Source of the DNA: Deltaproteobacteria bacterium
GTDB lineage: Bacteria; Desulfobacterota; Desulfobacteria; Desulfobacterales; Desulfobacteraceae
DNA: 43,076 bases
Reading direction: 5' to 3'
Assembly: GCA_027858995.1 (NCBI GenBank)
Contig: JAQIBP010000106.1
Location: 1 to 43,076 of the forward strand
The position numbers and the translations under genes were made by a program. Below are positions 5,804 through 33,773 of the stretch, one piece after another. Position 1 is the first letter of the stretch. Every line of letters begins with the position of its first letter. The notes under the pieces are model-generated. The model made no database searches. It saw nothing but the letters and a program-made list of their open reading frames with translations, and was not told the DNA's origin.

Positions 5804-7531
5804 ATGGGAAAACTTTTAAGGATTAACACTAAAGAAAAGACTTTTAATTTTGAAGAAGTGCCACAGGATTATGAAGGTCTTGGGGGCCGGGCATTAACTT
5901 CTAAGATGATTCTCGATGAAGTACCGCCTACCTGCCATCCGCTTGGAAAAGCAAACAAATTAATCTTTGCGCCGGGAATTCTTGCAGGCTCTCCTGCAGC
6001 AGATTCAGGGCGACTTTCTGCCGGAGCTAAATCTCCTTTAACAGGAGGCATTAAAGAGAGTAATGCAGGCGGCCTGGTATCCCAGAAGCTTGCAAAACTT
6101 GGAATAACCGCACTTATTCTTGAGGGCAAACCTGAAAATGATGATTACAGCATGATTGTAATCAATAATGACGGAGTTGAAATCCTGCCTGTCGGTGATC
6201 TTGCTGGTAAAGGGAATTATGAGGTCATGGAAAATTTGTGGGCTAAATATGGAAAAAATACAGGGGTTTTAAGTATTGGCCAGGCAGGTGAACAGTGTCT
6301 TAAAAGTGCAAGCATTCAACAAGCTGATATGAGTGGCAAACCTGGCAGGGCACACGGTAGAGGTGGTCTGGGCGCTGTAATGGGAGCAAAAAAAATAAAA
6401 GCCATTGTTGTTGATGATAAAGGTGCTTCCCGTGTTGAGATTAAAGACAAAGATGCTTTTAAAGCTGCCAATAAAAGATGGGTTGATATGTTAAGAAAAC
6501 ATCCTGTTACAGGAGAAGGCCTTCCAGCCCTTGGTACGGCAGTTCTGGTTAATGTAATCAATGAAGCCGGAACTTTTCCCACCAAGAATTTCAGGACCGG
6601 TCGTTTTGAACATGCCCAGGATATCAGCGGTGAAAAAATGGCAGAAAATATTGAAGCAAGAGGCGGTATCACAACAGAACCATGCCATCCGGGCTGTGTT
6701 ATTAAATGTTCCAATGTTTACCATGATAAAGATGGAAAATATCTTACCACAGGGTTTGAGTATGAAACAATCTGGGCTTTTGGTGCCCATACCACTATTA
6801 AGGAACTTGATGATATTGCCATGCTGGACAGGCTTTGCGATGATTTTGGCCTTGATACCATTGAAACAGGTGTAACCCTTGGAATTGCCATGGAAGGCGG
6901 CATGATTCCCTGGGGAGACGGCAAGGCAGCCATAGATCTTCTATCCAAAGTTGGTGATGGAGCACCCGAGGGCAAAATTATTGGCAGTGGAGCTGCATTC
7001 ACGGGCGAAGCCCTTGGTGTAGACAGAGTACCTGTCGTTAAAAAACAATCCATGCCCGCCTATGATCCAAGATCCTGCAAAGGTGTTGGAGTTACTTATG
7101 CAACAACTCCAATGGGTGCAGATCATACTGCAGGCTATGGTGTTACAGCAAATATTCTTGGTGTTGGCGGAACTGTTGATCCCCATAAAAAAGAGGGAAA
7201 TGTAGAACTGTCCCAGGGTCTGCAGATTGCAACAGCAGCCATAGATGCAGCTGGGTTATGCCTTTTTGTCGCCTTTGCAGTTCTTGACAATGAAGACGGG
7301 CTTCCCACCATTGTAGCGATGATTAATGCACAATATGGATTATCTCTTACACCGGATGATTTTCTTGAACTTGGTAAATCAATTTTGAATAATGAAAAAG
7401 AGTTTAACAAAAGAGCAGGATTTACAAAAGTTGATGATAAACTTCCTGAAATGTTTGATGAAAAATTTCCACCCCATGATACTACCTGGGATTTTACATT
7501 GGAAGATCTGGCAAAAACCCTTGATTTTTGA
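5804..7531 (+). CDS. aor: tungsten-containing aldehyde:ferredoxin oxidoreductase
   Basis: 575 aa, the normal size for AOR. It oxidises aldehydes to carboxylic acids using W-bis-pyranopterin and one [4Fe-4S] cluster. The N-terminal domain has the typical GGRALTSKMILDEV and GRLSAGAKSPLTG blocks and the cofactor-binding AHGRGGLGAVMGAKKIKAIV segment. The cluster ligands are C294-x3-C298-x3-C302 and C486 (AGLCLFV). A strong AAAGGAGG site precedes ATG 5804 and a terminator follows at once, so it is probably a single-gene unit. With a bam operon nearby, aromatic aldehydes such as benzaldehyde are plausible substrates, but specificity cannot be read from sequence. It is only distantly related to BamB in this window. 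Confidence 0.92.
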   Translation: MGKLLRINTKEKTFNFEEVPQDYEGLGGRALTSKMILDEVPPTCHPLGKANKLIFAPGILAGSPAADSGRLSAGAKSPLTGGIKESNAGGLVSQKLAKLGITALILEGKPENDDYSMIVINNDGVEILPVGDLAGKGNYEVMENLWAKYGKNTGVLSIGQAGEQCLKSASIQQADMSGKPGRAHGRGGLGAVMGAKKIKAIVVDDKGASRVEIKDKDAFKAANKRWVDMLRKHPVTGEGLPALGTAVLVNVINEAGTFPTKNFRTGRFEHAQDISGEKMAENIEARGGITTEPCHPGCVIKCSNVYHDKDGKYLTTGFEYETIWAFGAHTTIKELDDIAMLDRLCDDFGLDTIETGVTLGIAMEGGMIPWGDGKAAIDLLSKVGDGAPEGKIIGSGAAFTGEALGVDRVPVVKKQSMPAYDPRSCKGVGVTYATTPMGADHTAGYGVTANILGVGGTVDPHKKEGNVELSQGLQIATAAIDAAGLCLFVAFAVLDNEDGLPTIVAMINAQYGLSLTPDDFLELGKSILNNEKEFNKRAGFTKVDDKLPEMFDEKFPPHDTTWDFTLEDLAKTLDF

Positions 7532-22616: not shown

Positions 22617-24623
22617 ATGAGGTATGCAGAAACAGGGTTTAATCTCGAAGTTGATCTTTCTCGGGGGAATATTGAGAAGGTCGCAACTGACCCAAAAGAT
22701 ACCGAGCTCTATCTCGGGGGTCTGGGCACTAACACCAAGATATTTTGGGACAGGGTTTCTCCAGAAGTTGATGCCTTTTCTCCTGAAAATCTTTTAATAT
22801 TCGGCACAGGACTTTTATGCGGTACGCCTGCAACCGGTTGCAATCGTACCATTGTAACCACTATTTCTCCCCAGACAAAATTGATGGCATTTTCAATGAT
22901 GGGAGGATACTGGGCGCCGGAATTGAAATATGCCGGGTACGATAAAGTTATTCTTCGCGGTAAATCCAAAGACCTGGTTTATTTATGGATAAACAATGAC
23001 AAGGTGGAAATACGTGATGCCTCCCATTTAAAGGGTAAAGGAGCTATTGAGACTGCTGAACTGATTCGCAAGGAGCTCAAACAGCCAAAAGCCCAGGTAT
23101 CTGCAATCGGTCTTGCCGGTGAAAACAGGGTTTTTTATGCCTCTGTGGAACAGGGCAGATCCAGTGCAAGCCGGGGTGGCATAGGGGCTGTTATGGGAGA
23201 TAAAAAGATAAAAGCCATTGTTGTTCGGGGAACAAAGGATATTCATATTGCAAAGCCCGAAAAATTCATGGAGCTTTGTTATGAAGTGATGGATTATATA
23301 AAATGGAGGGAAGATCATCCGATCCCGGGCGTAACACCTATCCTCGCAATTCTTGGTTCCCCCCAGGAGATGGCTATCCATGATGAAAAATGGCATACTG
23401 AAAATTTTTCATGGGGTAATGCCCGCACAAGAAGAAGAGATTTCTGGACAGATGATGTTTCAGAAGAGTGGCTGGAAACCATGACCAAGGCAAGAACAAG
23501 GCTGATTTCCTGCTACAATTGCTCCATTGCATGTGGGGCAACTATCTCCATGCCTGGTCTATCCACATATATGATGAAATGTTTTACAAAACTTACCTAT
23601 ACAATGGCAGCTTTTTCAAACCTGGAATTTGGTTTGACAATAGCCCACCATGCTACAGAGTACGGTGTGGATGGTTATTCAGCACCCCAGACAATGGCAT
23701 TTGCCCTTGAACTTCTGGAAAATGGAATACTGACCGATAAAGATTTTCCTGATATGCCCGAAGACAATGAGGGAAAGTTTTTCTACCTGCTTGACAAAAT
23801 TGTCAGGCGTGAAGGTATAGGAGATATTCTGGCAGATGGTACCTACTGGGCAGCAAAAAGGATTGGCAATGGTGCTGAAGAGTATGCCCATAATAATATT
23901 AAAAAATCAGAGCAGCTGCCCCTTAAGCTTTCAATGCTCAATCCCATCTATTTTCTCATGTACTGTACCGGTGAAAAGATGAATATCACCCAGATTGAAG
24001 GGCAGTTCCCTCAGGCAGCTTTTCCGAAAAAAGAACACAGGGAAAAATTTGTAAAGGACTGGTTCCAGGTTCCTGATGAAAAATTTAAAAAATACTTTGT
24101 GGACTGGGAACCCAGGGGAGAAAATTCAAATCCCTACTATCCAACACCTGAAATAACCTGTGATATTGTGGACTGGCAGGAGAAGATGCACTATATTGAT
24201 GATGCTCTTGGGATGTGCGCAGGCCTGTCATCATTCCATCTGAAACCACCATATCATATCCATAATATTCCAAAAATGATGGCAGCAGCTGCCGGAATTG
24301 ACATGGATGAAGAAAAACTGTCCCAGGGAGCCAAGAGATACCGAACTCTGGTCAGGGCTGTAAATATGAGCAGAGGCATGAAAAGGAAGGATGAAAAGCC
24401 ACCTGAGGATCATTGGAAGAAAAGATTTCCTGAACTTGAAAAAGAACTTCTTGACACCTATTACAAATATAAAGGGTGGAACAACGATGGTGTTCCAACA
24501 AAAGAATCCCTGCATGATCTGGGTTTGGATTACGTGGCAAAAGAGTTGATAGCAAGAGGATTTTTATCAGATGACGAATACAGCTCCGGTAAAGAGACTT
24601 CAAAGGTTAGAGAGACAAATTAG
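22617..24623 (+). CDS. bamB: benzoyl-CoA reductase class II, tungsten catalytic subunit
   Basis: 668 aa. BamB is an AOR-family protein that reduces benzoyl-CoA to cyclohexadienoyl-CoA without ATP, using a W-bis-pyranopterin. The N-terminal AOR domain is clear (GRSSASRGGIGAVMGDKKIK). Cluster ligands C299-x2-C302-x3-C306 (CYNCSIAC) and a later GMCAGLSS cysteine bind [4Fe-4S]. Residues E251, H255, H260 and C322 fall at positions that, as I recall it, correspond to active-site residues of Geobacter BamB. AAGGGGAA precedes ATG 22617. It is first in an eight-gene bam operon whose order matches the Geobacter metallireducens cluster. Confidence 0.95.
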   Translation: MRYAETGFNLEVDLSRGNIEKVATDPKDTELYLGGLGTNTKIFWDRVSPEVDAFSPENLLIFGTGLLCGTPATGCNRTIVTTISPQTKLMAFSMMGGYWAPELKYAGYDKVILRGKSKDLVYLWINNDKVEIRDASHLKGKGAIETAELIRKELKQPKAQVSAIGLAGENRVFYASVEQGRSSASRGGIGAVMGDKKIKAIVVRGTKDIHIAKPEKFMELCYEVMDYIKWREDHPIPGVTPILAILGSPQEMAIHDEKWHTENFSWGNARTRRRDFWTDDVSEEWLETMTKARTRLISCYNCSIACGATISMPGLSTYMMKCFTKLTYTMAAFSNLEFGLTIAHHATEYGVDGYSAPQTMAFALELLENGILTDKDFPDMPEDNEGKFFYLLDKIVRREGIGDILADGTYWAAKRIGNGAEEYAHNNIKKSEQLPLKLSMLNPIYFLMYCTGEKMNITQIEGQFPQAAFPKKEHREKFVKDWFQVPDEKFKKYFVDWEPRGENSNPYYPTPEITCDIVDWQEKMHYIDDALGMCAGLSSFHLKPPYHIHNIPKMMAAAAGIDMDEEKLSQGAKRYRTLVRAVNMSRGMKRKDEKPPEDHWKKRFPELEKELLDTYYKYKGWNNDGVPTKESLHDLGLDYVAKELIARGFLSDDEYSSGKETSKVRETN

Positions 24624-24640: not shown

Positions 24641-25186
24641 TTGAGTGATAATATAGAAAAGAAAATTATTAAAACAATTAAAATTGATGTTGATAAATGC
24701 CATGGATGCCGGGCATGCGAGTTAATATGTTCTGCTGTCCATGCAATACCTAAATACTCCAGCAATAATCCTGCAAGGTCCCGCATCAGAATTATCCGTG
24801 ATCCGATGAGAGATATATATGTACCTGTATTTGCAGGTGAATATACTGTAGCTGAATGTGCAGGCAGAGATGTATATACCATTGATGGAAAAGAGTATGA
24901 TGAGTGTTCCTTTTGCCGGGCTTCATGCCCTTCCCGGGATGAGTTTAAAGAACCGGATTCAGGACTGCCCCTTAAATGCGATATGTGTGAAGAGGAAGAT
25001 GAACCTTTGTGTGTAAAATGGTGTACTGTGGATGCCTTGATTGTTGAAGAGAGAGAAGAGGAAGTTGAAGAGCCTGATGAGGTTCAAGAGCAGGAAGAGC
25101 TTGAGTTAGGACTTGGTTCTCTTGCTGACAAATATGGTCTGGATAAACTTATGGACACTGTTGCAAGATTGTCAGAGAAGGAATAG
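24641..25186 (+). CDS. bamC: benzoyl-CoA reductase class II, ferredoxin-like subunit
   Basis: 181 aa with a TTG start at 24641 after GGAGGGC. C20-x2-C23-x2-C26-x3-C30, C89-x2-C92-x3-C96 and C113-x2-C116 with C124 and C128 indicate three [4Fe-4S] clusters in the pattern of DMSO-reductase/AOR electron-transfer subunits. From about residue 135 the protein has a highly acidic tail (EEREEEVEEPDEVQEQEELE), probably a docking surface. It passes electrons to BamB in the BamBC core. Confidence 0.92.
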   Translation: MSDNIEKKIIKTIKIDVDKCHGCRACELICSAVHAIPKYSSNNPARSRIRIIRDPMRDIYVPVFAGEYTVAECAGRDVYTIDGKEYDECSFCRASCPSRDEFKEPDSGLPLKCDMCEEEDEPLCVKWCTVDALIVEEREEEVEEPDEVQEQEELELGLGSLADKYGLDKLMDTVARLSEKE

Positions 25187-25189
25187 TCA

Positions 25190-26341
25190 ATGGAAACTTT
25201 AGCCCCCTTCAAAGAAGTAATAGATGAGATCAAAGAGGCTGGCGGAGATATCTTTAAATTATGTTTCCAGTGTGGATTGTGCGATGCAGTCTGCCCATGG
25301 AACAAGGTTCGCCAATTTTCCATGCGTAAATTAATCAGGGAAGCGGCCTTTGGATTAACTGAGATAGAAGAGGAAGATTTATGGCGCTGTACAACCTGCG
25401 GCACCTGCCCTGACCAGTGCCCGAGAGGCGTAAAACAGATAGATTTAAGTGTAGCCCTGAGAAGAGTTGCAACTGAATATGAAGTTTTCCCAGCTTCTGT
25501 TAAATCAGCACGCACAGCAAGGGCAAGCCTGATTTCTGAAGGCAATCCTATCCAGGGAGAGAGGGCAAAACGTGCTGACTGGGCAAAGGATTTGTCTGTA
25601 AAACCTTTTACAGATGATATGGAAGTTTTGTATTTTGTGGGATGTTATTTAAGCTATGACCCAAGAATGAAAAAGGTAGCCGCTGCAACTGCTAATATCC
25701 TTAAAAAAGCAGGAGTTGAATTTGGCATACTCGGAGAGAAGGAAAACTGCTGCGGGGAAAGCATAAGAAAAACAGGCAGTGAAAAGGTTTTTAAAGATCT
25801 TGCCAAAAAAAATATTAAAACCTTTATTGATAAAGGGGTTAAAAAAATTATAGTATCCTCACCTCACTGTTACCACACCTTTAAAAATGAATATCCTGAA
25901 TTTATGGTACACTTTGATGTTGTACATATGTCCGAGTATATCCTGGAACTTATCAATGATGGAAGACTTGAACTTAAAGGTGAATTTGAACACAGAGTAA
26001 CCTGGCATGATCCATGTTACCTTGGGCGGCACAACAATATTTATGAAGAGCCAAGAGAGGTGTTAAAAAAGATTTCAGGCCTTAAATTAATTGAGATGGA
26101 AGCCCATGGCAAGAAAAGTCTTTGCTGTGGAGGCGGAGGCGGCAGGATCTGGATGGATACGCCCCAGGAAGAGAGATTTTCCGATATCAGGATTAAACAG
26201 GCAATTGAAGTTGACGCAACCATCCTTGCAACAGCATGTCCGTACTGCATTACCAACTTTGAGGAGAGCCGTCTGAACCTGGAATATGAAAATACCATAG
26301 AGATTAAAGATATTACCGAAATTGTAAGTGAAATGATATGA
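25190..26341 (+). CDS. bamD: HdrD/HdrBC-like FeS oxidoreductase subunit of the Bam complex
   Basis: 383 aa. N-terminal C25-x2-C28-x2-C31-x3-C35 and C67-x2-C70-x2-C73-x3-C77 correspond to HdrC. Two CCG domains follow as in HdrB: VGCYLSYD...ENCCGES and HDPCYLGRHN...SLCCGGGGG, which bind non-cubane [4Fe-4S] clusters. In heterodisulfide reductase such a subunit is where electrons meet a disulfide; in Bam it links BamE to BamBC. It starts 4 bases after bamC. A 243-base structured gap separates it from bamE. Confidence 0.92.
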   Translation: METLAPFKEVIDEIKEAGGDIFKLCFQCGLCDAVCPWNKVRQFSMRKLIREAAFGLTEIEEEDLWRCTTCGTCPDQCPRGVKQIDLSVALRRVATEYEVFPASVKSARTARASLISEGNPIQGERAKRADWAKDLSVKPFTDDMEVLYFVGCYLSYDPRMKKVAAATANILKKAGVEFGILGEKENCCGESIRKTGSEKVFKDLAKKNIKTFIDKGVKKIIVSSPHCYHTFKNEYPEFMVHFDVVHMSEYILELINDGRLELKGEFEHRVTWHDPCYLGRHNNIYEEPREVLKKISGLKLIEMEAHGKKSLCCGGGGGRIWMDTPQEERFSDIRIKQAIEVDATILATACPYCITNFEESRLNLEYENTIEIKDITEIVSEMI

Positions 26342-26584: not shown

Positions 26585-29500
26585 TTGAAAAACGAAGTAT
26601 TGCCAACAGAAACAATTCAAGAATTTTCTAAAGGCCTTGTTTCTAAAAATTCGGGAAATCAAAATTTTGGAGATGTAATGGTTGTTGGTGGAGGTGTCAG
26701 CGGCATTCAGGCCTCTCTCGATCTTGCAACTGCCGGGTTTAAGGTCTACCTGATTGAGAAAGGAGCCAGTATTGGCGGCCACATGGCCCAGCTTGACAAG
26801 ACCTTTCCCACAAATGACTGTTCAATGTGAATTCTCTCTCCTAAACTGGTCGAGGTCGGCCGGCATCCAAACATAGAGGTTTTGACATTCACTGAAGTTG
26901 ATCAGGTGGAAGGTGAACAGGGTGATTTTAAAATACGCCTGAAAACTAAACCAAGATACATCATAGAAGAGAAGTGTACTGGCTGTTCAACCTGTACGGA
27001 ATACTGTCCTGTTCAATATCCCGATGCATTTAACCAGGATATTTCAGGCAATAAGGCTGTCCATGTATATTTTTCCCAGGCAATCCCGCTTGTTGCATAT
27101 ATTGATGAATCATGCCTCTATCTTAAAGACAAAAAATGTGATATCTGCCGGGGTATATGTAAGACTGGTGCCATAGATTTTAACCAGACCGTTCAGAAAA
27201 CAGATATCAACGTAGGTGCAATCATTTTGTCCTATGGTATTGAGCCCTTTGATCCCGGTGTCAAGGATGAATATGGTTACGGCAGACTGCAAAATGTCGT
27301 AACAAGTATGGATTATGAAAGACTTTTATCCTCCACAGGTCCCTATGAAGGTCAGGTCAGGCGCACTTCAGACAGAGAACACCCCAAAAAAATAGCCTGG
27401 ATTCAATGTGTTGGTTCAAGAAGGGTCACTGAAGGTGATAACAGCTATTGCTCCGGTGTTTGCTGCACCTATACACAAAAACAGGTAATTTTAACAAAAG
27501 ATCATTATCAGGATGCTGAATGTACAATTTTCCACAACGATATCCGCTCCTTTGGTAAGGATTTTGAACGATATTATCAGCGGGCAGAAGCGTATGACGG
27601 CGTTCGGTTTATAAGAAGCTATGCATCAATTGAGAAGGAAAACCCAGAAAATAACAGTGTGGTTATAAGATATTCCACCTTTGATGACGGTGTTAAAGAG
27701 GAAGAGTTTGACATGGTGGTACTCTCTGTTGGTTTAAATCCACCTGCTGATTCCAGAATGCTTGCTGATAAATTTGGCATTGAATTAAATGCCCATGGAT
27801 TTAATAAAGAAATTCATTCTAATCCGGTTAAAACATCAAAACCCGGAGTATTTGTAAGCGGAGCTTTCCAGGGTCCCACAGATATCCCGGAATCTGTATT
27901 TACTGCCTCGGGAGCGGGTTCCCAGTGCGGCGAATTGCTTGATTACAGACGGGGAAACCTTTCAAGAGAGAGGATATATCCGCCGGAAACAGATGTTTCC
28001 CAGGAAGAGCCGAGAATCGGTGTTTTTGTCTGCCATTGCGGTGCCAATATCTCAAGCGTTGTAGATGTTCCCTCCACGGTTGAATATGCCTTGACACTTC
28101 CCAATGTGGTTTATGCCAAGGAACAGCTTTTTTCATGTGCAACAAACTCTGCCCAGGAGATTACAGAGCTTGCAAAGGAAAAAGGCCTTAATCGTGTAGT
28201 TCTTGGAGCATGTTCGCCAAGAACTCTTGAACCTTTGTTCAGGGATACCCTTAGAGAAGCCGGTTTGAATCAATATTATCTTGATATGGCAAATATCAGA
28301 GAGCACTGCTCCTGGGTTCACTCAAAACAGAAGGAAGATGCAACTAAAAAGGCCCAGGACATCATCAGAATGTCAGTGGCAAGAGCAGCCTGGCTTGAAC
28401 CGCTGCAGGAATTTGATCTGCCTGTAAACAAAACAGCTCTTGTGGTTGGTGGCGGTATCGGCGGCATGACATGTGCGCTCTCCATCGCAGCCCAGGGTCA
28501 TGAAGTTCAACTTCTGGAAAAAGAGAAAGACCTTGGCGGGATAGCAAGGCGGCTTGATACCACCATAGAGGGAATGGATGTCCAGAAACATCTGAATGAC
28601 CTCATAACCAAAGTTTATCAGAATCCACGCATTCATGTATCCCATGAAGCTACTATTACTGATGTCTCTGGGTATGTGGGAAGTTTTGTCACCACCGTTG
28701 AAACCGAAGGGCAAATAAAAAAAATAAAGCATGGCGCTTCTGTTCTTGCAACAGGTGCAACAGAGTATGAGCCTGAAGAGTATCTTTATAAGGAAAATGA
28801 TGCAGTCTATACCCATCTTGAACTGGGAGAAGAGATTGCAAAAAAAGAGGAAAAAGTAGTAAATGCTGAAACCCTGGTGATGATTCAATGTGTCGGCTCC
28901 AGAGATGAGAAGAGAAATTACTGCTCCAGGGTCTGTTGCTCCCACGCTGTGAAAAATGCGATCAAGCTCAAAAAAATTAATCCTGATATGAATATCTATA
29001 TCCTTTTCAGGGATATGAGAACCTATGGGTTAAGAGAAGATTATTACAGAGAAGCTGCTGATATGGATGTGAAATTTATCCGCTATGAACCCGAAGAGAA
29101 ACCACAGGTTGAAGCTGTTGAAGAGGGCGGCCGATCCATTTTAAGAGTTACACTCCCAGATCCTGTTCTGGGTTACGGTCTTGAACTGGATGCTGATGTT
29201 GTCTCCCTTGCTGCTGCTGTGATTCCCAGTGAAACAACCACTAAAATTGCAGGTCAGTTCAAAGTAACCTTAAGCCCGGATGAATTTTTTAAAGAGGCTC
29301 ATGTCAAATTAAAACCTGTTGAGTTTGCAGCAGACGGTGTTTTCCTCTGCGGGACAGCCCACTATCCAAAGCATATACAAGAGACTATTAACCAGGCTTA
29401 TGGCGCTGCCGGCAGAGCATTAACACTGCTGTCACACGATACTGTTGTAGCTTCCGGTTCTGTCTGCGTGGTAAATGAGTATGATTGCGTTTCATGCGGT

Positions 29501-29737
29501 GCCTGTATTACAGCCTGTACCTACGGTGCCATTGAGTTTAAAGAGACTCCAAAGGGTAAGAAAGCGTGGGTCAATCCGGTTCTCTGTAAAGGAGACGGTG
29601 TCTGTAATGCAAAATGTCCGACAGATGCCATAGTGTTAAAGCATTTCACCGATGAAGAGATTTTTGGCCAGATTGATGCAGCTGTTACAGATGAAGAAAT
29701 TAGAAAACAGATGGATGCAGCATTTGAAGACGCATAA
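26585..29737 (+). CDS. bamE: HdrA-like FAD/FeS subunit of the Bam complex, selenoprotein
   Basis: 1050 aa when UGA 26828-26830 is read as selenocysteine (U82). TTG 26585 follows an AGGAG site. The N-terminal Rossmann motif [13 protein letters not shown] (residues 35-47) binds FAD. The context [18 protein letters not shown] is the HdrA motif that has Cys in most homologues and Sec in some methanogens. Ferredoxin-type clusters follow ([12 protein letters not shown] near 131, CDICRGIC, then [11 protein letters not shown] near 968 and [12 protein letters not shown] near 1000). A second Rossmann block, [14 protein letters not shown], lies near 620, so two HdrA-like FAD modules are fused. Likely the flavin electron-bifurcating/confurcating centre of BamDEFGHI. 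Confidence 0.93.
26846..26863 (+). promoter_or_regulatory. SECIS-like hairpin for bamE Sec82
   Basis: CUGGUC pairs with GGCCGG (six pairs including two G-U) around the loop GAGGUC, 15 bases after the UGA. The loop carries the GGU typical of bacterial SECIS elements and resembles that of E. coli fdhF. It lies within coding sequence, as bacterial SECIS elements do. Confidence 0.7.
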
Positions 29738-29802: not shown

Positions 29803-30561
29803 ATGGATGAATTTAAACCAAAAATACTGGGTTTTGTGTGTCACTGGTGAGCATACGGTGCTGCTGACCTGGCTGGAGTTTCCAGACTACAATATGCTAA
29901 TGAGATGAGGCTTATCCGTGTCATGTGTTCGGGAAGAGTTGATCTTGAATTTATATTCAGATCCTTTGCCAAGGGACAGGATGGAGTATTTATTGGCGGT
30001 TGCAAATTAGATGAATGCAATTATACAACCCATGGTAATTATGATGCCCTTGCCAATACATATATTGCAAAAAGACTGTTAAAGCATATAGGCATTAACC
30101 CCAAACGCCTTCGTACTGAATTTATGTCAGGAGCCGACGGCCATCTCCTTGCTGAATATACAGATAATTTTTCAGGAGAAATCAGAGAGCTTGGCCCCCT
30201 TGGTACAAGTGAAGGCTTGAGCCGTGGTGAATTGAAAATCAAGCTTGAATCTGCAAGAAAACTTATTCCCTATTTAAGACTTGTGGAGAGAGAAAGACTG
30301 AGGGTTCCTGAAAAAACAAAAAAAGCATATACCAGTTTTTTTGAAAGCTATGAGACAAAAAATCTGTTTGATAAAATAGTATCAGATAAACTTGCAATAA
30401 GTCAGATTTTGCTGCTTTTAAAAGATAAAGCCCTTTCAACAAGCGATATTGCACAAAACCTGGATTTAAATCCTTCAGATGTTTCAAAACATATGAATAC
30501 ATCATCCAGGCAGGGTTTGATAAAATATGATACTAACAGCAACTGCTACGCACTAGCCTGA
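29803..30561 (+). CDS. bamF: MvhD-like FeS subunit of the Bam complex, selenoprotein with C-terminal wHTH
   Basis: 252 aa when UGA 29848-29850 is read as selenocysteine (U16). Without read-through the conserved N-terminus would be lost. The peptide KILGFVCHW-U-AYGAADLAG and then VSRLQY matches MvhD, where Cys occupies the U position; C41, C67 and C72 are the remaining [2Fe-2S] ligand candidates. MvhD transfers electrons between hydrogenase and HdrA; here it would link BamE with the NADH module. Residues about 195-252 form a winged-helix-like segment (STSDIAQNLDLNPSDVSKHM). Copy C of the palindromic element follows 9 bases after the stop. Confidence 0.93.
29873..29885 (+). promoter_or_regulatory. 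SECIS-like hairpin for bamF Sec16
   Basis: CUGG (29873-29876) pairs with CCAG (29882-29885) around the loop AGUUU, 22 bases after the UGA, with a GU in the loop. It is short but well placed for SelB recognition. Confidence 0.6.
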
Positions 30562-30760: not shown

Positions 30761-31213
30761 ATGGAAATTGATAAAGTAGATAAGATTATTGATAAACATG
30801 GTGGAGATGCGAGTTCTCTGCTTCAAATCATGCTGGATGTTCAAAGTGAAAACAATTGGCTTCCCAAACAGGCTTTAGACAGGATTGGTGAAAAATTAGA
30901 AGTTCCCATGAACCGGATTCAGCATATAGCCACATTTTATAAAGCTTTCAGCCTGGTTCCCAAGGGGCGGCATAATGTCCATGTCTGTGTTGGTACAGCC
31001 TGTCATGTCAGAGGGGCTACCCGTATTCTTGACAGTGTGGAAGAATCAACAGGAATCAAGTCAGGGGAGACTGACCTTGATTTAAAGTTCAGCGTGGAGA
31101 CAGTCAATTGTCTTGGCTGCTGTGCTCTCGGACCGGTTGTGGAAGTTAATGGCAAGGTTCATGGTAAGATGACACCTGTTAAAACATCAGAAGCTTTAAA
31201 ATTATATGAGTAG
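30761..31213 (+). CDS. bamG: NuoE-like [2Fe-2S] subunit of the Bam complex
   Basis: 150 aa, normal NuoE length. The thioredoxin-like domain has C76-x4-C81 (CVGTAC) and C117-x3-C121 (CLGCC) binding [2Fe-2S] cluster N1a. The N-terminal helical part carries LQIMLDVQSENNWLPKQALD and IQHIATFYKAF, family landmarks. With BamH and BamI it forms a soluble NADH-dehydrogenase-like module. bamH follows after 9 bases. Confidence 0.93.
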   Translation: MEIDKVDKIIDKHGGDASSLLQIMLDVQSENNWLPKQALDRIGEKLEVPMNRIQHIATFYKAFSLVPKGRHNVHVCVGTACHVRGATRILDSVEESTGIKSGETDLDLKFSVETVNCLGCCALGPVVEVNGKVHGKMTPVKTSEALKLYE

Positions 31214-31222
31214 GGGAAAATT

Positions 31223-33157
31223 ATGGCGCGGTTAAATACGCCTGAAGAGTTATCAGACTTCAGACAGGAAATATTATCAAAAAGAGATCCTGACAATCCT
31301 TGTATTTCAGTATGCGCAGGAGCAGGTTGCGTTGCTTCCGGGGCAGACGAAGTTATAAAAGCTTTTAAAGAGGAAATTGAAAAACAGGATTTAACAGCAA
31401 AAGTAGATACAAAGGGAACCGGATGTCCGGGATTCTGCGAGCAGGGCCCAATTGTTGTTATTTACCCGGAAGAAATCTGCTATGTCCAGGTGAAGGCAGA
31501 GGATGTTGAGCAGATTGTTGCCGAGACCATAAAAGAGAACAAGGTGATTGACCGTCTGCTTTTTGCAGACCCCATCACAGGTGAAAAAGCAGTTAAAGAG
31601 TCTGATATCACATTTTATAAAAGCCAGGAGAGGACAGTCCTCTGCAATAACATTAAAATTGATTCCAAAAGTATTGATGATTATCTGGCTCTTGAAGGTT
31701 ATTCTGCCCTTGGCAAAGCTCTTGGAGAGATGACCGGTGCTGAAGTTCTCGAAGAGGTTAAAAAATCCAATATCAGAGGAAGGGGAGGTGCAGGTTTTCC
31801 TGCAGGCAGAAAATGGGAAGGCACACGTAATGCCAAAGACCCGGTCAAATATGTAATTGTCAATGCAGATGAGGGTGATCCCGGAGCATTTATGGACAGA
31901 GCCCTGCTTGAAGGCAATCCCCACTCCATTCTTGAAGGCTTAATCCTTGGCGGATATGCCATAGGTGCCAGTGAAGGCTATTTTTATGTTCGCCAGGAGT
32001 ATCCCCTTGCAGTGGATAATATCAACCTTGCCATAGAACAGGCTGAACATTATGGTCTTCTTGGAGAGAATATTCTTGGTTCCGGATTTAATTTCAAGGT
32101 CATTGTGCACCAGGGAGCAGGAGCCTTTGTCTGCGGCGAATCAACAGCTTTGATGGCTTCACTTGAAGGCCGGGTGGGTGAACCCAGGCCTAAATATATC
32201 CGTTCCAATATTAAAGGGTTGTGGCAAAAACCCTCTGTTTTAAACAATGTTGAAACATGGGCAAATATACCACTTATAGTTAATAATGGTGGTGAGTGGT
32301 TTACAAAGGTTGGAACTGAAACAAGCAAGGGTACAAAGATTTTTTCCCTTGTTGGGAAAATTAATAATACAGGTCTTGTTGAAGTACCCATGGGCATGAC
32401 GCTGCACGATATTATCTATAAAATCGGCGGCGGCATTCCTGGAGGCAAAAAATTTAAAGCAGTACAGACAGGAGGTCCTTCCGGCGGATGTATTCCCGAA
32501 GGGCAGCTGGATTTACAGGTGGGGTTTGATGAACTGACCAAGGCCGGCTCCATGATGGGCTCCGGCGGGATGATTGTCTTGGATGAAGATACCTGCATGG
32601 TGGATGTTGCAAGGTATTTTATTAATTTTCTCACTGAAGAGTCCTGCGGTAAATGTGTGCCATGCCGTGAGGGACTGCGCCAGATGCACAGAATTTTGAC
32701 CAATATTACAAAGGGAAGAGGCAGAGAGGGCGATATCGAACTTCTTGAAGATATTTCAGAAACTACTGTTGAAGCCTCTTTATGCGCCCTTGGTAAAAGC
32801 GCTCCAAATCCGTTCTTGAGTACTCTTCGTTATTTCAGGGATGAGTATGAAGCTCACATAAAAGAGAAACGATGTCCGGCTCTTGCCTGCAAAGAATTGA
32901 TTGTTTTCCATATAGATCCTGCTAAATGCCAGGCATGTGGCATGTGCCTTAAAAAGTGTCCTGCCGATGCCATTGACGGTGGCAAGAAAAAAATTCATAT
33001 CATTGATCAGGATAAATGTACAAATTGCGGAACCTGTTTTGAAGTCTGTCCTGATAAGTTTGGCGCAGTAACAAAGATTTCCGGAGAGCCTGTTCCAGAT
33101 CCTCTACCTGAAGAGAAGAGAATGATTGCCAAAAAAAGCCCTAAAAAGAAAAAATAA
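31223..33157 (+). CDS. bamH: NuoF-like NADH:acceptor oxidoreductase subunit of the Bam complex
   Basis: 644 aa. Domain order: N-terminal [2Fe-2S] thioredoxin-like part (CAGAGCVASGADEVI, GCPGFCEQGP), the NuoF core with FMN/NADH motifs (SNIRGRGGAGFPAGRKWEG, NADEGDPGAFMDR, GAGAFVCGESTALMASLEG), the N3 cluster ESCGKCVPCREG near residue 472, and two C-terminal [4Fe-4S] motifs (CQACGMCLKKCP near 568, CTNCGTCFEVCP near 597). The fusion is the same as in HndC/HydB-type bifurcating enzymes, and it would exchange electrons with NAD(H). The last bases carry a lysine-rich tail (KKSPKKKK). Confidence 0.93.
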   Translation: MARLNTPEELSDFRQEILSKRDPDNPCISVCAGAGCVASGADEVIKAFKEEIEKQDLTAKVDTKGTGCPGFCEQGPIVVIYPEEICYVQVKAEDVEQIVAETIKENKVIDRLLFADPITGEKAVKESDITFYKSQERTVLCNNIKIDSKSIDDYLALEGYSALGKALGEMTGAEVLEEVKKSNIRGRGGAGFPAGRKWEGTRNAKDPVKYVIVNADEGDPGAFMDRALLEGNPHSILEGLILGGYAIGASEGYFYVRQEYPLAVDNINLAIEQAEHYGLLGENILGSGFNFKVIVHQGAGAFVCGESTALMASLEGRVGEPRPKYIRSNIKGLWQKPSVLNNVETWANIPLIVNNGGEWFTKVGTETSKGTKIFSLVGKINNTGLVEVPMGMTLHDIIYKIGGGIPGGKKFKAVQTGGPSGGCIPEGQLDLQVGFDELTKAGSMMGSGGMIVLDEDTCMVDVARYFINFLTEESCGKCVPCREGLRQMHRILTNITKGRGREGDIELLEDISETTVEASLCALGKSAPNPFLSTLRYFRDEYEAHIKEKRCPALACKELIVFHIDPAKCQACGMCLKKCPADAIDGGKKKIHIIDQDKCTNCGTCFEVCPDKFGAVTKISGEPVPDPLPEEKRMIAKKSPKKKK

Positions 33158-33191
33158 CCCCAAAAGGAAAAATATAAAGAGAGCAGATAAA

Positions 33192-33773
33192 ATGAGTGAA
33201 ATAAAATTTGAAATTGATGGAATAAAAGTAAAAGCCAAAAAGGGAGAGACTCTCCTTGATGCAGCTCAGGATGCAGGCATATTCATCCCCACACTTTGTC
33301 ATCATGAAAAACTCGAACCTTTTGGCGGATGCAGACTTTGCATTGTAGAAGTAGAAGTAAAAGGCTGGACAAAACTTGTTGTCTCCTGTGTCTATCCGGT
33401 TGAAAAAGATATAATAGTCAGAACCAGATCTGAAAAAATTGATAGAATCCGTAAAACCATAATAGAACTTCTTATGGCTCATGCTCCTGATGCGCCTGAA
33501 CTTAAAAAACTTGCAAAAGAGTATGGAGCAAGCCGTGATCGTTATGAAAAAGATCCTTCATTCTGTATTCACTGCGGATTGTGCGTAAGATATTGTGCCG
33601 AGGTTAAAAAAGCCAATGCCATCGGCTTTGTTGACAGGGGAATTAACAAAGAGATCTGCTTTGTACCTGAAATAGCCTCACAAATGTGTAACGACTGCAA
33701 GGAGTGCTTTCCTCTGTGTCCTACATCCTATCTCCAGGCAGCGTTTGTTTTAACTGAGTCTTTGATAGCATAG
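33192..33773 (+). CDS. bamI: NuoG-like FeS subunit of the Bam complex
   Basis: 193 aa from ATG 33192; upstream in-frame ATGs lie inside bamH. The N-terminal plant-type [2Fe-2S] domain (TLCHHEKLEPFGGCRLCIVE, then CVYP) precedes a His-Cys region and two [4Fe-4S] motifs, CIHCGLCVRYC and CNDCKECFPLCP. It corresponds to only the first part of NuoG, without the molybdopterin domain, as expected for BamI. It is the last gene of the bam operon; no terminator hairpin was recognised in the 200 bases after it. Confidence 0.92.
   Translation: MSEIKFEIDGIKVKAKKGETLLDAAQDAGIFIPTLCHHEKLEPFGGCRLCIVEVEVKGWTKLVVSCVYPVEKDIIVRTRSEKIDRIRKTIIELLMAHAPDAPELKKLAKEYGASRDRYEKDPSFCIHCGLCVRYCAEVKKANAIGFVDRGINKEICFVPEIASQMCNDCKECFPLCPTSYLQAAFVLTESLIA

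Follow-up and report, generated by a model that had tools for sequence, protein, structure and literature searches.

When the 43,076-nucleotide stretch of DNA analysed here (the window) was translated, the gene that we call bamE was found to carry an in-frame UGA at codon 82, and the question raised by this locus is whether the protein ends there or selenocysteine is inserted. The gene is located in an operon of the bamB-I type, with neighbours of the AOR, Fe-S, HdrD, MvhD, NuoE, NuoF and NuoG types (Table 1). This gene complement is that of a class II benzoyl-CoA reductase (bam) operon, in which the genes at 30761-33773 would bear the letters bamI, bamH and bamG. From its sequence the operon may be assigned to the class II (ATP-independent) benzoyl-CoA reductase type with a predicted substrate, and in operons of this kin aryl-CoA thioesters other than benzoyl-CoA may be what is reduced. 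The names bamB to bamH are used in the relevant part of PMC1924859. Another aldehyde ferredoxin oxidoreductase family gene (5804-7531) lies beside a Crp-type regulator about 15 kb before the bam genes. A Desulfobacula-type bacterium is the most likely source of the window, because over the stretch compared the loci of the window's genus group match, without a difference, contigs named Candidatus Desulfobacula maris and Desulfobacula sp. (L025 = L086 and L046 = L112).

Table 1 Features of the bam operon in the window, with the basis of each assignment
Feature	Position	Strand	Description and basis
bamB-like aldehyde ferredoxin oxidoreductase family subunit	22617..24623	+	AFOR_N/AFOR_C
bamC-like Fe-S subunit	24641..25186	+	Weak Fer4 matches; adjoins bamE in many related loci
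bamD-like CCG/Fer4 subunit (HdrD-like)	25190..26341	+	Domain matches
bamE	26585..29737	+	Fused double-HdrA-like FAD/Fe-S subunit of 1050 residues, Sec predicted at 82; translation, Pfam/NCBIfam, PDB HdrA, fold match
HdrA module 1 (residues 31-455)	26675..27949	+	FAD domain with inserted ferredoxin domain and U82, without N-terminal HdrA domain; 8rvu/5odc alignment, boundaries approximate
UGA very probably read as selenocysteine (residue 82)	26828..26830	+	Among 114 distinct loci, counting the window: 104 with TGA, 10 with a Cys codon
Bacterial SECIS-type hairpin	26846..26863	+	7 pairs, loop AGGU, start 15 nt past the UGA; folding and cross-gene comparison
HdrA N-terminal domain heading module 2 (residues 471-627)	27995..28465	+	Invariant C483, C485, C518 and C543 (42 rows)
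HdrA module 2	28466..29734	+	Second FAD domain and C-terminal ferredoxin domain; Cys197 position lacks Cys; boundaries approximate
bamF	29803..30561	+	FlpD/MvhD-like subunit, ArsR-type HTH at the C-terminus; frame continued across the UGA
Second in-frame UGA (bamF residue 16, motif VCHWU)	29848..29850	+	102 distinct bamF sequences compared: 96 with UGA, 6 with Cys
Possible bamF SECIS hairpin (CUGGA-GUU-UCCAG)	29873..29885	+	Fold and codon constancy for; no support from the energy test
bamI, bamH and bamG-like subunits (NuoE, NuoF, NuoG/HoxU type)	30761..33773	+	Profile matches

The bamE reading frame and codon 82 among relatives

Translation of the bamE frame gave 1051 codons with a single internal stop, the TGA at 26828-26830, followed by [12 protein letters not shown]; the initial annotation had likewise described the frame as broken by this UGA only. 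In a random frame of 1050 codons at the G+C content of the window (39.2 %), about 67 stops would be expected and the probability of finding at most one is about 4e-29. The start codon is TTG, with GGAG ahead of it.

A match to the BamE protein was found in all 97 genomes searched (the window's own and 96 relatives), many of the matches being more distant HdrA-like proteins. Codon 82 was read in a set of 133 loci consisting of 50 from the 97 genomes, that of the window among them (30 loci and 20 regions chosen among the matches listed, with rows of that similarity starting after residue 82 omitted), 80 on named contigs, chosen as the best among 294 relatives, and three paralogues from the window's own genome. 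Residue 82 was readable in 131 of these (L068 and L109 gave no reading), and once loci without a difference in the 300 nt starting at the codon had been merged, 114 distinct loci were obtained. The codon was TGA in 104, TGC in six and TGT in four, a 104:10 ratio which over-represents the UGA type because the query was a UGA-type BamE. None of the 114 distinct loci had TAA, TAG or a residue other than Cys at codon 82. From the group of HdrA proteins with 45-50 % identity, many of which have one TGA, the residue-by-residue reading took in the window genome's own paralogue L066.

The ten Cys-type loci include two HdrA paralogues of the window's genome (L066 and L067). L066 is a second full-length HdrA-like gene, 45 % identical and with Cys at the site, and its locus also holds a bamF-like match, likewise with Cys. 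The eight Cys-type BamEs that are close relatives of the window's protein (L053-L056, L058, L130, L148 and L153) all share E84, F88 and an extra C91. This C91 was found in none of the 104 UGA-type genes, 102 of which have Val at position 91. The Cys-type BamEs were placed apart by FastTree (113 rows) and by a quick 66-row tree, where two changes were needed. A careful 31-row tree with unsettled bootstrap did not reject a single Cys-type clade (p-AU 0.31), and we do not argue for a repeated origin of the Cys-type BamEs. Close bamE relatives were also seen in bins named Omnitrophota, Armatimonadetes and Spirochaetes (L092, L153 and L135), as a result of either lateral transfer or mis-binned contigs.

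The downstream hairpin and the decoding of the UGA

A hairpin with the stem 26846-26852/26857-26863 follows the bamE UGA. The initial annotation had described six pairs and a GAGGUC loop beginning 15 bases past the UGA; the start is correct, and the structure folds with one more pair, since the top G-C pair had been left open. By itself the hairpin of the window is weak evidence, because its stability as a single sequence was unexceptional against dinucleotide shuffles (z of -0.34 and -0.68 for two spans), and it is through comparison across genes that it becomes strong. A search of the whole window with Rfam at gathering thresholds gave no match, which speaks neither for nor against a SECIS element.

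For the comparison, synonymous recodings of a 36-nt segment were drawn with the codon usage of the same gene. The natural segment beat the mean of its recodings in all 104 UGA genes (mean z of -2.4 and -2.7 at two offsets), with a mean energy at offset 15 of -10.7 kcal/mol versus -5.7 kcal/mol for the recodings. In the Cys genes, in contrast, three of ten were below zero (mean z of 0.0 and +0.2) and the mean energy was -3.3 versus -3.7 kcal/mol. Control segments of the UGA genes at offsets 102, 192, 282 and 372 gave mean z values of -0.08, -1.00, +0.09 and -0.33, respectively; at 192 nt downstream 74 of 104 were below zero, so the synonymous test has some background.

Each of the seven pairs is retained in 103 or 104 of the 104 UGA genes. 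The first pair is C-G in 101 and A-U in three, and the seventh is G-C in 101, C-G in two and broken in one, so that both show two-sided changes. Codons 88-93 (L V E V G R) appear as CTG GTC GAG GTC GGC CGG nearly without synonymous variation, whereas neighbouring codons such as 83-86 and 95-101 do vary. Among the Cys genes the pairs are retained in two to ten of ten, four of the seven in six or fewer. Stability, paired changes and codon constancy in the UGA genes, with neither the preference nor the conserved stem in the Cys genes, argue for selection at the RNA level that is tied to the UGA, as for a SECIS element. The placement shortly after the UGA, conserved across the UGA genes, is that of a bacterial SECIS, as had been proposed.

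The initial annotation had also held that absence of the sel genes would refute selenocysteine. In the window's genome (97.1 % complete, a draft of 172 contigs) all components were found: tRNA-Sec (75.6 bits versus a cut-off of 47, the next candidate scoring 39) and, above their curated cut-offs, selA (601 bits), selB (350 bits) and selD (366 bits). The selD match (L013, G000:C151:10190-11116) has one TGA within it and is itself probably a selenoprotein gene.

Three other explanations of the UGA were weighed. It could be a nonsense mutation or a sequencing error, the gene being a pseudogene or the contig misassembled, and the draft state of the genome leaves room for such an error. This is extremely improbable, as the identical UGA stands at codon 82 in 104 of 114 distinct loci, which come from many genera and from bins bearing the names of several phyla, and the frame with its 968 open codons past the UGA shares 70-82 % identity with 40 of the 41 relatives aligned. 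A true stop, by which BamE would become two proteins, one of 81 residues and one of 951 residues with a start of its own, would be served by the in-frame TTG at 26882, which opens a 951-codon frame. The break would then lie within the first FAD domain, directly ahead of the invariant P86-K87, all sense codons at the site are Cys, and the downstream hairpin is conserved with the UGA and not in the Cys genes, so that we consider such a split very unlikely.

In the case of decoding as Cys or Trp without selenium, for example under a reassigned code, the exchange between UGA and Cys cannot by itself separate selenocysteine from Cys. The complete set of tRNA-Sec, selA, selB and selD and the termination of the neighbouring bamF at a UGA (30559-30561) make this reading scarcely credible as well. 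The machinery, a codon that alternates between UGA and Cys only, and a hairpin conserved as RNA uphold the original proposal of selenocysteine at residue 82, and bamE is very probably a selenoprotein gene with UGA 26828-26830 as its selenocysteine codon (probability of about 95 %). From these sequences we infer actual insertion in the window's organism: SelA, SelB, SelD and tRNA-Sec would insert selenocysteine at this UGA, and the hairpin 15 nt downstream would direct the insertion.

A second UGA in bamF

A conserved UGA in bamF, absent from the initial annotation, is new here. The open frame listed for bamF begins at 29905, and its FlpD match then starts only at profile position 28. When bamF was read through TGA 29848-29850 from ATG 29803, the VhuD match, which had covered profile positions 31-127, was extended to 2-127 and the score rose from 70.6 to 118.3 bits. 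All 12 UGA rows listed contained the possible hairpin in their fold, and each of codons 24-28 is the identical codon in 85-95 of 96 sequences. The energy test, for which the estimate of codon usage drew on 300 nt or less, gave mean z values of +0.46, +0.67 and +0.43 at offsets 3, 12 and 15, with 17, 11 and 19 of 96 below zero. As this test gave no support, the case for a bamF SECIS is made by codon conservation and the UGA/Cys pattern.

Of the 114 distinct loci, 105 allowed both sites to be read; among these, 96 had UGA in both genes, three had a Cys-type bamE with a UGA-type bamF, and six had Cys in both. No locus combined a UGA-type bamE with a Cys-type bamF, the bamF UGA being present in all 96 readable loci with a UGA-type bamE (Fisher p of 5e-8 for the association, with relatedness of the loci ignored). 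Within this sample, predicted selenium in BamE accompanies predicted selenium in BamF and not conversely. The part of PMC1794560 on Geobacter metallireducens gives eight selenoproteins, with FrhD included and HdrA not, and this set fits the one-way association.

Under a standard reading of the operon, two subunits, BamE and BamF, are truncated. Should both contain selenium, these anaerobes would depend on it for ring reduction at two points of the electron path.

Residue 82 in BamE and comparison with known systems

BamE matches PDB HdrA in three stretches and possesses the FAD domain, the cluster Cys motifs and the Cys197 position of HdrA. Its scores remained below the NCBIfam cut-offs for methanogen-type HdrA (939 of 1100 bits for HdrA2; 742 of 1400 and 690 of 1300 for the HdrA equivalogs), and the protein is therefore classed as HdrA-like rather than as a methanogen HdrA. 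The two modules, each with an FAD domain, agree with its earlier description as a 1050-residue double-FAD subunit, and Cys occupies the motif position in all three PDB alignments listed (8rvu, 8rvv and 5odc), as the same description had it. The 5odc alignment is ungapped from query residue 32 (chain residue 147) to query residue 82, which by hand count places residue 82 at chain residue 197. In the second half, no Cys was found in residues 645-699 in any of the 42 aligned rows. An AlphaFold model (mean pLDDT 76.1) matched HdrA 5odi_A (E-value 6.2e-50) and also 5odc. With values of 58, 42 and 61 for blocks 61-70, 71-80 and 81-90, it is too uncertain around residue 82 to be used for the ligand question.

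In the passages of PMC9012536 on HdrA, Cys197 of the methanogen protein is described as a ligand to the other HdrA copy's N-terminal iron-sulphur cluster, with electron flow towards ferredoxin, and fused or tandem HdrAs are described as splitting Cys197 and the N-terminal domain between their halves. Sec82 would occupy the Cys197 position, which has its residue only in the first half of BamE, and would supply a ligand to the second half, where alone the N-terminal cluster domain is found; in HdrA the ligated cluster lies on the electron branch towards ferredoxin. By this equivalence and the complementary halves we favour, on balance, Sec82 as a selenolate ligand of the second half's N-terminal Fe-S cluster. 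The initial annotation had put a selenol at the cluster/flavin junction; the selenocysteine stands, and its site becomes the more specific one of HdrA Cys197.

Sec82 might instead be a redox-active selenol near the flavin and no cluster ligand, for example in a selenosulfide with C79. C79 and residue 82 do form a CxxU/CxxC pair that does not vary among 42 rows, and in other proteins pairs of the CxxC type act as redox motifs. The ligand role described for methanogen Cys197 (PMC9012536, in the part cited above) and the retention in BamE of the complementary halves needed for such ligation make this rather unlikely. Should Sec82 prove to be a cluster ligand, Fe-Se ligation in a bifurcating flavoprotein could be studied in a natural system, that of BamE and its relatives. 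More tentatively, Sec82 as a ligand across the fused halves and Sec16 of BamF might form a paired selenium relay in the reductase, to which the occurrence of BamE Sec only where BamF has Sec among the loci read, and C91 in the eight close Cys-type BamEs, are pointers. Selenium may also be of some benefit in BamE. In the literature as searched on HdrA Cys197 and on selenocysteine ligands of iron-sulfur clusters, this selenocysteine was nowhere stated as a cluster ligand; the selenocysteine passage of PMC9012536 concerns another enzyme.

Selenoproteins in the benzoate metabolism of Desulfococcus multivorans were reportedly the subject of a 2004 paper. A selenocysteine-containing BamE is not new in kind, since in the genome of that species BamE (dmul_C24500/10) is among five genes given with a UGA upstream of a SECIS (PMC5109826, in its list of such genes), and selenocysteine-containing HdrA has long been known (PMC1794560, in its part on this family). 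That five-gene list is without bamF, in contrast to the UGA observed in bamF here. The same part of PMC1794560 places Sec-HdrA in Deltaproteobacteria, Clostridia and archaea, in some operons with an adjoining gene for a Sec-containing FrhD, and Sec-containing HdrA and MvhD proteins are mentioned for Desulfobacterium autotrophicum (PMC2702500, in part). BamE resembles this family as an HdrA-type protein with a predicted selenocysteine, and differs from it as a fused double HdrA in an operon of the aromatic-ring-reduction type. The closest parallel in architecture described in the cited part of PMC9012536 is with the fused HdrA of ANME archaea (HdrA3/HdrA4), in which each chain has two halves with complementary Cys197 and N-terminal domain, as in BamE. 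In BamE the order is reversed, the Cys197-type half preceding the one that has the N-terminal domain, and the residue would be selenocysteine.
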